A stretch of DNA of 64,000 nucleotides from Trichodesmium erythraeum GBRTRLIN201 (lineage in GTDB: Bacteria; Cyanobacteriota; Cyanobacteriia; Cyanobacteriales; Microcoleaceae), in the NCBI GenBank assembly GCA_018457135.1, contig JAGGDU010000164.1, positions 1-64,000 of the forward strand, given 5' to 3'. The notes below the pieces were generated by a model, which did not search any database, was not told the origin of the DNA, and saw only the letters and a list, made by a program, of their open reading frames with translations. This document shows positions 28,774 to 51,035 of the stretch, piece by piece. Both the position numbers and the translations under genes were made by a program. Position 1 is the first letter of the stretch, and every line of letters starts with the position of its first letter.

Positions 28774-29622
28774 ATGTCTACAAAAATTAAATTGGTTAAA
28801 AAACATCAATGCTTTGGTGGTACAGTAAGCTATTATTTCCACTCATCTTCCACCTGTAATACTGAAATGCGTTTCTCAATTTACCAACCATCGCTAGCAA
28901 AATCACAACCTCTTCCTATTCTGTATTTTCTCTCAGGTTTAACCTGTACTGAAGAGAACTTTATGGCTAAAGCAGGAGCGCAACAATTTGCTAATAAATA
29001 TGGGTTAATTTTAGTTGTACCAGATACAAGCCCACGAAATACTGGTACTTTTGGAGAGGATGATGATTGGGATTTAGGTACAGGTGCAGGATTCTATATT
29101 AACGCTACTGTAGAACCTTGGAAAAAGCACTATCAAATGTATAGTTATGTCGTCGAAGAACTACCAGAAATTATTGCCAAAAATTTTCCTGTACAACCAG
29201 ATAAGCAAAGTATTTTCGGTCACTCTATGGGAGGTCATGGAGCACTAATTTGTGCTTTGAAAAATCCTGAAAAATATCAATCTGTTTCCGCCTTTGCTCC
29301 AATTGCAGCACCTATGCGTTGTTATTGGGGAAAGAAAGCTTTTAGGAATTATTTAGGTACAAACACAAAAAATTGGCGTGATTATGATGCTAGTGAATTA
29401 GTTTTAACTTATAAGTATAATCGTCCAATTTTAATTGATGTAGGAACTGTAGATCCTTTTTTAGCTCAAAAGCAATTACTCCCAGAAGTGTTTGAAAGTG
29501 CTTGTCAAAAAGTTGGTTTACCACTAACTTTAAGAATGCTAAAAAATTATGATCATAGCTATTATTTCATTACATCTTTTATTGAAGATCATATTCGTTA
29601 TCATTCTGAATTTTTAAACTGA
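28774..29622 (+). CDS. fghA: S-formylglutathione hydrolase
   Basis: This 282-residue alpha/beta-hydrolase of the esterase D family hydrolyses S-formylglutathione to formate and glutathione, completing formaldehyde oxidation begun by frmA. It has PILYFLSGLTCTEENF with the oxyanion-hole region, KAGAQQFANKYGL, TSPRNTG, the nucleophile elbow FGHSMGGHGAL (Ser near 149), DVGTVDPFL with the acidic residue, and NYDHSYYFI with the catalytic His. The length is normal. The fghA and frmA genes share a strand but are far apart, so cotranscription is uncertain. Confidence 0.95.
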   Translation: MSTKIKLVKKHQCFGGTVSYYFHSSSTCNTEMRFSIYQPSLAKSQPLPILYFLSGLTCTEENFMAKAGAQQFANKYGLILVVPDTSPRNTGTFGEDDDWDLGTGAGFYINATVEPWKKHYQMYSYVVEELPEIIAKNFPVQPDKQSIFGHSMGGHGALICALKNPEKYQSVSAFAPIAAPMRCYWGKKAFRNYLGTNTKNWRDYDASELVLTYKYNRPILIDVGTVDPFLAQKQLLPEVFESACQKVGLPLTLRMLKNYDHSYYFITSFIEDHIRYHSEFLN

Positions 29623-30190
29623 ATCAAAACTATAAGCACTTAAACACTCATTGCAGGCCTCGGCTAATTTGATGTGAGAGATATAGTATAAGTAATTCGG
29701 CTTGGAAAAATGTGTAGTTAATTTTATCCACCTGCTTAATAGCAAAAGTAAAAAAAACAGACTTTTTTTTTAAGATGATGATATTCCAGTATGACTACCC
29801 ACCGTTACAAGAAAATCAGTTTATTACCCTTATTATTTATTGTTTGTCAAATCAGGAAATTTAGTCGATAAACTTGGTTTATGGGTAACTCCTCAATATA
29901 TGTAGCACTTTTGAGATTGATGAACTACGTTGTATCAATAAAACTTTGTAGGAAACCCCTACTGTGAACCACTGTCAAATCAAATAGTAGATTTCACTTA
30001 TACTCAATGGTTTATTAATGTTTTACACATTGTTTGAGACTAACTCCCAGCAAATAATTTTAACCTTCTAACTTACCCTACTCAACTTAAATAGGAAAAA
30101 TTGAGTTTCAAGCCTGGCCAATAATCCAGGGAAAATCCATGTTTAAATAAAATTTGGTTTCGCAACCAGCCTTCTCTGATAAATACTGTA
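29623..30190. other. Intergenic region
   Basis: No intact gene is seen. Minus-strand DNA around 30100-30210 gives a protein-like but unrecognised reading (HGYFQGTSFSTVFIREGW, then NQILFKHGFSLDYWPGLK). Plus-strand 29790-29910 has a short open stretch without a start. Confidence 0.3.
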
Positions 30191-30204
30191 GAAAAAGAGG
30201 TTCC

Positions 30205-30485
30205 TTGAAAATATCCGTGGGCCCTTAAGTCTAACTTGGGAAGCTTTCAGGTTTTAGAGCAGTTTGTGCCCTAAAGGCAAATTAAAGACCCACAAGAATT
30301 TTTGGTAAGTCGCCCTCGGGAATTCCGAGGCTCTAAATGAAGGCAGAGACCCGCTTAATACATCCCCAGCAATAGGGGTGAGTGCAGGGTTTTGAGACTT
30401 TAACCCGCATCAGAGGGACGCCTGGGTTGTTTCTCTGTACCTAACAGTCAGGAATAATATCAAACCTAAGGCCTTTAGGGTATGG
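30205..30485. ncRNA. Candidate structured RNA / GC-rich stem-loop island
   Basis: A block clearly richer in G+C than its surroundings contains several nested complementary segments. GTGGG near 30210 pairs with CCCAC near 30290. GCC-CTAAA-GGC is a local hairpin. CCTCGG-GAATT-CCGAGG forms a perfect 6-bp stem near 30315. CAGAGA near 30345 pairs with TCTCTG near 30436, and this stem encloses CCCC-AGCAATA-GGGG and GGGTT-N10-AACCC. That is the layout of a multibranched RNA. I matched it to no family by eye: not RNase P, SRP, tmRNA, 6S, a cobalamin riboswitch, or group I or II introns. It could be the RNA part or end of a vanished transposon. The strand is undecided. Confidence 0.45.
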
Positions 30486-30621
30486 CAATAATCATCTCAT
30501 CCTGCTCAAATTACAGTATATTTTCGATTCAGTGAGGTACACCTGTAGGCGGTTAGAAACCAAATAAACAAAGATTTTTAATAAAAACCCTGATAATTAA
30601 TCTGCTGAGAGTTGACTGTAA
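30486..30621. other. Spacer downstream of cysH
   Basis: A CTAAGGCCTTTAG near-palindrome is at about 30468-30480. There is no convincing T-rich terminator for cysH on the minus strand. Confidence 0.3.
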
Positions 30622-31425
30622 TTACAATAAACTAGAATCAAGACTTTGAGCCTCTTCTTGTGTTTGAGGCAAATGTAGCCCACACTCCTGCTTAAGACCA
30701 TAAAAGCGAGTATCCCGTTCATCTTGATCATCAGTAGTAAGAGGCCGACTAGAATGCCAATCTCCTACAGTAGTGTATCCCAAATCAAAAAATGGATGAT
30801 ATGGTAAATTATGAGCAGTTAAATATTGATAAATATCCCGTGCATTCCAATTGAGTATTGGTAAAATTTTATATATATTCGACTGTTTACTAATGCGATC
30901 TAAACTTTGGCGGTGCTTGGTTTGTTCTCCCCTTAACCCAGCTAACCAAGCAGTGGCCTTCAGCTCTCTCAATGCTCGTTGCATGGGTTCTACTTTGCGA
31001 ATTTGGTCATAGCGGTTAAGAGCCTCAAGATCTTTTTCTGCCCAAAGTCTGCCATATAAAGCTTCCATCCGACCTGGACTAATATGTGACTGATAAACTT
31101 TCACATTAAGTTTCAGTCGTTCTATCAACTCTTCAGCAAATTTATAGGTTTCGGCTGGTAAATATCCTGTATCAATCCAGATAACAGGAATATTAGGTAT
31201 AACACTTGTAACTAGGTGTAACATAACAGCAGCCTGAATACCAAAACTGGTACTCATAACCAGACCTTCCTTAAAAATTTTTAACCCCCACTGTACTAAA
31301 GTGTGAGGATCTGCTTGACTAAGTTCCTGATTAACAACCCCAAGATCTAGTTCTGGTAAATACCTGTAATCTTGATAATTGTATTGTCCATTTTTATTGA
31401 GTCTGATTAAACTCTGTTGTAGCAT
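30622..31425 (-). CDS. cysH: Phosphoadenylyl-sulfate (PAPS) reductase
   Basis: This 267-residue assimilatory enzyme reduces PAPS to sulfite with thioredoxin or glutaredoxin. [17 protein letters not shown] is the PP-loop-like nucleotide-binding site. [17 protein letters not shown] and [15 protein letters not shown] follow, then the C-terminal catalytic ECGLH motif (Cys near 248). The CC...CC pairs that bind the Fe-S cluster in APS reductases are absent, which points to PAPS as substrate. The ATG at 31425 is preferred over an in-frame TTG at 31437. It is encoded alone on the minus strand, downstream of the NFACT gene's terminator. Confidence 0.93.
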
Positions 31426-31913
31426 AGTTATTACCAATAAAAAAACTGGGTATATTGGGTTAAAAGGATTATCATTGATCCTATTTTATTAATACCCTTC
31501 AATAAGAGACTATTTATACCGTTTTTTATCTATGGATTACCTTGTCTGACAAAGACTAAGCACAAATCTAATTAAAACCCATACTTTGTGTTTAAGTTCT
31601 GAGTTTAGCCCACTGTTTTGGAAATAAACGTTATTTTGGTCATAATACGTCGGGATAGGGGGCTAGTTCGGGCCTCTCTTCTTTGGTATGAAATAGGTAA
31701 AGAAAGCTTTTTTGTGATATTATCGATATAATAAAAAAACCAGCTTGAGAAAACTGGCTTAAATTTTATTATATCTTCCGTTGTTGTTTCTGTGAGATTA
31801 ACCTATAGCTATAGCTACGCATTCCCAAGTCTGCAGCTTTTACTTTAGGGGTTTTAATTATCTCACTTACATCATATTAACAAACTATTGATCAATTTTT
31901 TATAAAAAAAAAT
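31426..31913. other. Spacer upstream of cysH
   Basis: It holds the terminator of the NFACT gene and presumably the cysH promoter. No gene is seen. Confidence 0.4.
31733..31762 (-). terminator. Rho-independent terminator of the NFACT gene
   Basis: On the minus strand AAGCCAG, then a ten-base loop, then CTGGTT is followed directly by a run of T residues. The hairpin lies about 150 bases after the NFACT stop codon and before cysH. Confidence 0.65.
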
Positions 31914-50933: not shown

Positions 50934-51035
50934 AGGACTTACCCATAAACCTGGTTATGAGACTAAGTTTTGTGAGGGGCAAAAAACAATAATCAGGACA
51001 ATAAACCCAGTTTCTTGTTTGGTTGCGTAAGTCCT
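50934..51035. repeat. Small inverted-repeat element, AGGACTTAC family (copy 2)
   Basis: This 102-bp element begins AGGACTTACCC and ends GGTTGCGTAAGTCCT. Internal segments AACCTGGTT and AACCCAGTTTC are related. It lies about 50 bp before a lipoprotein gene and could affect its expression. Confidence 0.65.

Follow-up and report, generated by a model that had tools for sequence, protein, structure and literature searches.

TnpB, a transposon protein ancestral to Cas12, works with a guide RNA, the reRNA or omega RNA. This reRNA is described as an RNA derived from the 3' end of tnpB together with the transposon right end, with about 16 nt of flanking DNA as guide (PMC8612924). In IS200/605 elements its scaffold is reported to stop at the transposon boundary (PMC10711439), and TnpB is reported to process its own mRNA into the reRNA (PMC10278001). 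Palindrome-associated transposable elements (PATEs) were described in Haloquadratum walsbyi (PMC3119063), and a PATE-like element of 271 nt in Halanaerobium consists, as described, of a left end, the last 58 nt of tnpB and the whole right end (PMC7290912). In the literature searched, of which coverage was partial, we found no report of cyanobacterial non-autonomous IS605 elements that bear an reRNA. Here we analysed a feature of Trichodesmium erythraeum GBRTRLIN201, a filamentous cyanobacterium of the Trichodesmium/Okeania lineage (Microcoleaceae), in a stretch of 64,000 nucleotides, the whole of which is called the window. From the ends that it shares with tnpB transposons, the homology of its right part, the covariation of the reRNA in its relatives and its decay, we conclude that it is very probably a decayed, full-length, PATE-type non-autonomous element of the IS200/IS605 family with a worn reRNA-encoding part.

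The feature is flanked on the left by an S-formylglutathione hydrolase gene (28774-29622, + strand), which shares 89% identity with its counterpart in Okeania sp. SIO3I5 and 85% with that in Trichodesmium sp. MAG_R02, and on the right by the PAPS reductase gene cysH (30622-31437, - strand). Exact 2-kb stretches are common to the records of these two and two genomes of the genus (G002 and G006). An initial annotation had pointed to a GC-rich island in AT-rich surroundings at 30205-30485, and this was borne out: its GC content is 46.3% compared to 33.9% in the window and 31.4% at 29623-30094, and it is equalled or exceeded by 2% of sampled 281-bp windows. The extent was drawn too narrowly, as the actual unit spans 30095-30464, most of which is covered by the island. 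The remainder of the gap between the two genes is a mosaic of three further dispersed repeats with many matches in the genus: no. 1 at 29631-29741, no. 2 at 29807-29902, which also matches window positions 50934-51018 on the - strand, and no. 3 at 29904-29952. The 64-kb window contains no Rfam match at gathering score, a scan of 29600-30640 at E≤5 returned a single irrelevant snoRNA match, and a tRNA/tmRNA search returned none. The annotation had named no matching family, and the scan of 29600-30640 at E≤5 shows nothing relevant either. Group II introns, IscB omega RNA (HEARO) and 6S RNA, considered as identities, do not appear in the Rfam scans run.

The search for other copies, which the annotation had proposed, placed the feature within a dispersed family. 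At E≤0.001 a 501-bp query found 15 matching places in the own genome, its own position among them and several of them partial, and it had matches in six of the seven genomes of the genus that were searched, the own genome included. The dispersed element measures about 350-425 bp; its copies share a start corresponding to window position 30095 and the full ones end at 30463-30464. Thirty-nine copies can be aligned over their full length, which is near-constant, and have the middle module in common. These copies are at odds with reading the feature as a plain tnpB pseudogene fragment that arose by a chance deletion and never multiplied, a reading in favour of which one can put the match of the right 160 bp to the 3' end of tnpB and the 92 TnpB matches in the own genome, many of them broken, and which we consider highly improbable. 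Pairing left and right ends in the fetched loci yielded three groups: S elements of 232-284 bp (n=20, non-redundant), M elements of 312-398 bp (n=23, including the window copy) and A elements of 1.16-1.68 kb (n=13), which carry a tnpB that is intact in some and broken in others; a single end pair of 511 bp fits none of them. The S elements appear to have arisen by direct deletion of tnpB and resemble the described composition of the Halanaerobium PATE-like element (PMC7290912). In one genome (G047, loci L262-L266) near-identical M-type elements are cut by the ends of four contigs and by a gap in a fifth, a hint that they moved there recently and in high copy number.

Both ends of the M elements are those of tnpB transposons. 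A profile of the M elements matched all 13 A elements in the right part (E 4e-42 to 8e-25) and all 13 at the left end (E 5e-13 to 9e-7). The motif TTAC precedes the left end in 17/20 S, 17/23 M and 8/14 A elements and the right terminus GTCAA is found in 15/20 S, 14/23 M and 13/14 A elements, in sets that differ slightly from the end-pair groups and with the window copy outside the 23 M elements counted. The TnpB of the one long element tested (locus L142) gave matches to PF01385, PF07282, PF12323 and NF040570 and is ISDra2-like (ISDra2 TnpB, PDB 8bf8, E 3.8e-71). In 12 of the 13 A elements about 100 bp separate the left end from a tnpB-like start, a distance that leaves no room for a preceding tnpA. 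The own genome has eight Y1 matches, and at least one intact TnpB gene of this subfamily is present among the TnpB matches listed (G000:C195, 441 aa, 69% identical). At G000:C231:483-1392 a broken tnpB (- strand) lies beside a broken Y1 tnpA (+ strand) with a weak left-end match nearby (E 0.01), possibly what remains of a complete element in which these ends enclosed both tnpA and tnpB. For movement of the short elements, we propose that TnpA supplied in trans would recognise the hairpins of the left and right ends and insert the element after TTAC.

Within the window, the element occupies 30095-30464 on the + strand, as do all its parts given below, and matches positions 10-378 of the 380 positions of the family profile (nhmmer, 269 bits). 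It is 70.8% (257/363) identical to the majority of the 38 other copies, the fourth lowest value of the 39. The left end (30095-30140), homologous to that of the tnpB elements, contains a palindrome that can be read from the sequence (CCTGG 30113-30117 and CCAGG 30126-30130), and the TTAC found before most copies is not readable ahead of it. It is followed by a decayed extended -10-like site (TGTTTAAAT, 30141-30160), by the middle module (30161-30311) and by the homology to the 3' end of tnpB and the transposon right end (30306-30464, start approximate), the latter detected with nhmmer in the 13 tnpB elements. The element thus resembles PATEs in being too short for a transposase gene (370 bp), in its near-terminal palindromes and in its IS605-type boundaries, and both its ends are related to an IS605-type transposon of the same lineage. 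It differs from them in that the M class adds a module of about 150 bp without detected tnpB homology and in that the right-end reRNA covaries in the kept copies of the family.

To describe the RNA encoded by the right ends, we drew a structure on locus L143 after the ISDra2 architecture (PMC10097598), consisting of stem 1, a GAC/GUC pseudoknot, a small hairpin, stem 3 and a UUUA-capped stem 4. Pairs were counted in a chosen subset of the right ends, the 38 from A, S and M elements whose tail has the short hairpin and GATGTNAA at its end. In these, 91.4% of 908 cells are paired compared to 21-51% in slid versions of the structure, a percentage that is partly circular, since these sequences, which are related to one another, also served to fit the structure. 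Double changes carry more weight: 11 of 24 pairs are double-changed compared to 4.2 in shuffles, with 28 double-changed cells compared to 9.5, and none of 500 shuffles scored as high on any measure. The relatives thus possess the pseudoknot and the stems of such a scaffold. When RNAalifold folded this alignment freely, it recovered stem 1 but paired much else differently, with 8 of 21 pairs double-changed. The consensus fold of the 39-copy alignment, in which the variable hairpin aligns badly, is weak (11 pairs, -2.69 kcal/mol). Folding of the last 175 nt gave mean z values of -1.18 for M (n=39), -0.88 for S (n=20) and -1.31 for A elements (n=13), with 10 M, 3 S and 2 A copies below -2; these modest values imply that energy alone cannot carry the claim of an RNA.

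Searched with a covariance model that lacks the pseudoknot (R1), the 64 kb gave the decayed reRNA scaffold of the window copy at 30334-30463, with a low score of 22.2 bits (E 0.0018); other copies in the own genome range from 11 to 95 bits. The match overlies the 3' end of tnpB and the right end and stops at 30463, the location of a TnpB reRNA. Eleven of the 17 aligned pairs are standard (stem 1 4/5, stem 3 2/5, stem 4 5/7), stem 4 being an imperfect right-end hairpin that, with the terminal TCAA, occupies 30431-30463, as placed by alignment, R1 match and pair check. The pseudoknot retains one of three pairs and the small hairpin is replaced, so that the window copy lacks the scaffold with pseudoknot and stems of its relatives and keeps stems 1 and 4 in part. 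Because little of the pseudoknot and of stem 3 still pairs, we expect the window copy to be an inert fossil and not an active RNA gene. Compared to ISDra2, the likeness resides in the TnpB of the tested long element and in stem 1, the pseudoknot, stem 3 and the UUUA-capped stem 4, which can be drawn in similar places; the window element differs by being without tnpB and by its lost pseudoknot, and the left-end motif is TTAC here instead of the TTGAT of ISDra2.

In elements of all three groups a GC-rich palindrome (CCCACCCC..GGGGTGGG) takes the place of the 5' pseudoknot arm and the small hairpin of the reRNA; its carriers are L145, L147, L153 and many M copies. From the alignment, the paired-cell counts and the contexts, the CCCC/GGGG hairpin of the window copy (30364-30378) is probably a remnant of this insert. 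In the fetched, partly redundant loci a loose pattern count gave 21 occurrences in reRNA context and 26 elsewhere. The insert resembles the small repeats described as invading PATEs and IS605 elements of Haloquadratum (PMC3119063).

The initial annotation had read the island as a folded RNA with nested stems or as the RNA component of a lost mobile element. The letters of all its stems are present: the outer pairing CAGAGA (30344-30349) with TCTCTG (30432-30437), the hairpins CCCC (30364-30367) with GGGG (30375-30378), GGGTT (30387-30391) with AACCC (30402-30406) and CCTCGG (30314-30319) with CCGAGG (30325-30330), and the pairing GTGGG (30217-30221) with CCCAC (30289-30293). Island and stems therefore stand as observations, but exceptional folding does not: on the + strand z was -1.19 with 25 of 200 shuffles equally good, and on the - strand a marginal -2.14 with 5 of 200. 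Among cells with letters in the 39-copy alignment, 90% are paired for the CCCC/GGGG stem and, less consistently, 75% for the outer pairing, so these two are kept in most relatives, but the other three are not (GGGTT/AACCC 55%, CCTCGG/CCGAGG 46%, GTGGG/CCCAC 14 of 91 cells). As a set the stems are paired in 62% of cells compared to 38-46% in slid versions, an excess that is partly expected of stems taken from one of the aligned copies. Together with the GC island and the marginal - strand value, this excess is what can be put forward for a new host structured RNA unrelated to transposons, against which stand the dispersal of the copies, a slid control biased towards any structure that one of the copies itself supplied, and a middle module that folds like shuffled sequence; the end homology to tnpB elements largely refutes this reading, which we consider extremely improbable. 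As to the two halves of the original interpretation, the mobile-element half was essentially right, since the right 160 bp are a decayed TnpB reRNA scaffold with the transposon right end, but the folded RNA with those nested stems was mostly wrong, given the weak energy test and a covarying pairing in relatives that differs from it and survives here only in part. The match to an ordinary coding remnant that the annotation had named as grounds for dismissal applies in part, in that the homology spans the last tnpB codons, yet the reRNA lies there too.

The middle module of about 150 bp showed no tnpB or Y1 homology in comparisons with the 13 A elements and loci L104-L141 (best E 3.1). It is apparently non-coding (at most 2 of 39 copies are open in any single frame across it), folds much as shuffled sequence does (mean z -0.44, 2 of 39 below -2) and is as conserved (0.849) as the ends (0.854 and 0.836). 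A query centred on it gave long matches in 11 of 61 genomes of the family, all of the own genus or genus g10, so that it is known so far in two genera; a further 18 of the 61 gave short matches alone, nearly all to the 3' part of tnpB. In a class-wide sample of 388 genomes, with two candidates scored each, the own genome and one 22-bp match were found. A phage search for a source of the module gave no match and a plasmid search found the left end alone, in three records. Just past the left end, 14 of 39 M copies, which are not independent, carry an exact TGnTATAAT, compared to a mean of 0.17 and a maximum of 2 in mononucleotide shuffles, and a two-hexamer promoter scan of one M copy found none.

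The promoter-like site bears on a further reading, which extends the PATE-type explanation without contradicting it and in which the window copy would be a dead member. The better-kept M-class relatives would be guide-RNA-only transposons, transcribed from their own extended -10 into a reRNA that takes the right flank as guide, and borrowing TnpB and TnpA from other elements; as orphan reRNA genes of the Trichodesmium/Okeania lineage that have acquired a non-tnpB module and possess a promoter, they would outnumber intact TnpB genes and recruit TnpB and TnpA in trans for their upkeep. The covariation in the 38 right ends, the TGnTATAAT sites well above shuffles and the number of R1 matches in the own genome (at least 83 at E≤1, with 150 of 1058 candidates scored), set against the one intact TnpB gene of the subfamily among the TnpB matches listed, are consistent with it. 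Nevertheless, the promoter scan was negative, the palindromic insert removes the 5' pseudoknot arm in many M copies and the covariation could be an inheritance from the tnpB elements, so we regard this reading as tentative and rather unlikely. In the PATE-type explanation itself, the retained, worn 3' end of tnpB with the right end would be the part encoding the reRNA, the DNA immediately to the right of the element would be the guide, and intact M copies might produce the reRNA and use TnpB in trans.

Moreover, the right ends of relatives share a likeness with HgcC (RF00062), an archaeal ncRNA in Rfam: the 3' end of its consensus (a UUUA-capped GC stem and GGAGG..GUCA) aligns with theirs. The best match reached 29.4 bits in L160 (E 5.2e-5 in 451 bases). 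HgcC was rejected as the family, since no tested copy reached its gathering score of 50 and the window gave no match. Sub-threshold matches lie on right ends of TnpB elements at L160:161-329, L146:162-245 and L286:226-345 (all - strand), L293:491-657 and L269:435-605, and on the right ends of G003:C615, G003:C114 and G005:C432; in further loci, 4 of 20 gave a match at E≤1. In T. kodakarensis, HgcC1-3 are described as transcribed in sense from within transposase genes (PMC4247193). HgcC may be a TnpB reRNA; no paper joining HgcC with TnpB, IS1341 or sotRNA was found in the literature searched, which was covered in part.

Both neighbouring genes are kept in six loci (L163-L168), and the M element is absent from the gap in all six; in Okeania hirsuta the equivalent gap is about 300 bp. 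Short left-end-like matches occur in four of the six syntenic gaps (E 8e-9 to 0.011). No empty site exact to the base was found among these loci because their flanks have diverged too far. The absence from all six gaps speaks for the PATE-type explanation; against it can be put the missing exact site, the four left-end-like matches, the low R1 score of the window copy, the Rfam scan at E≤5 that gave no relevant match and a middle module for which no source was found.

A fossil guide-RNA gene can thus underlie a GC island between genes that folds unremarkably, and only its relatives reveal it. Transcription of the intact relatives, if it occurs, would make them natural transposons of the guide-only kind and a test case for the persistence of non-autonomous IS605 elements. 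The non-coding fraction of Trichodesmium is described as large, about 40% of the genome, and largely transcribed (PMC4649490), and such elements may help to explain it.
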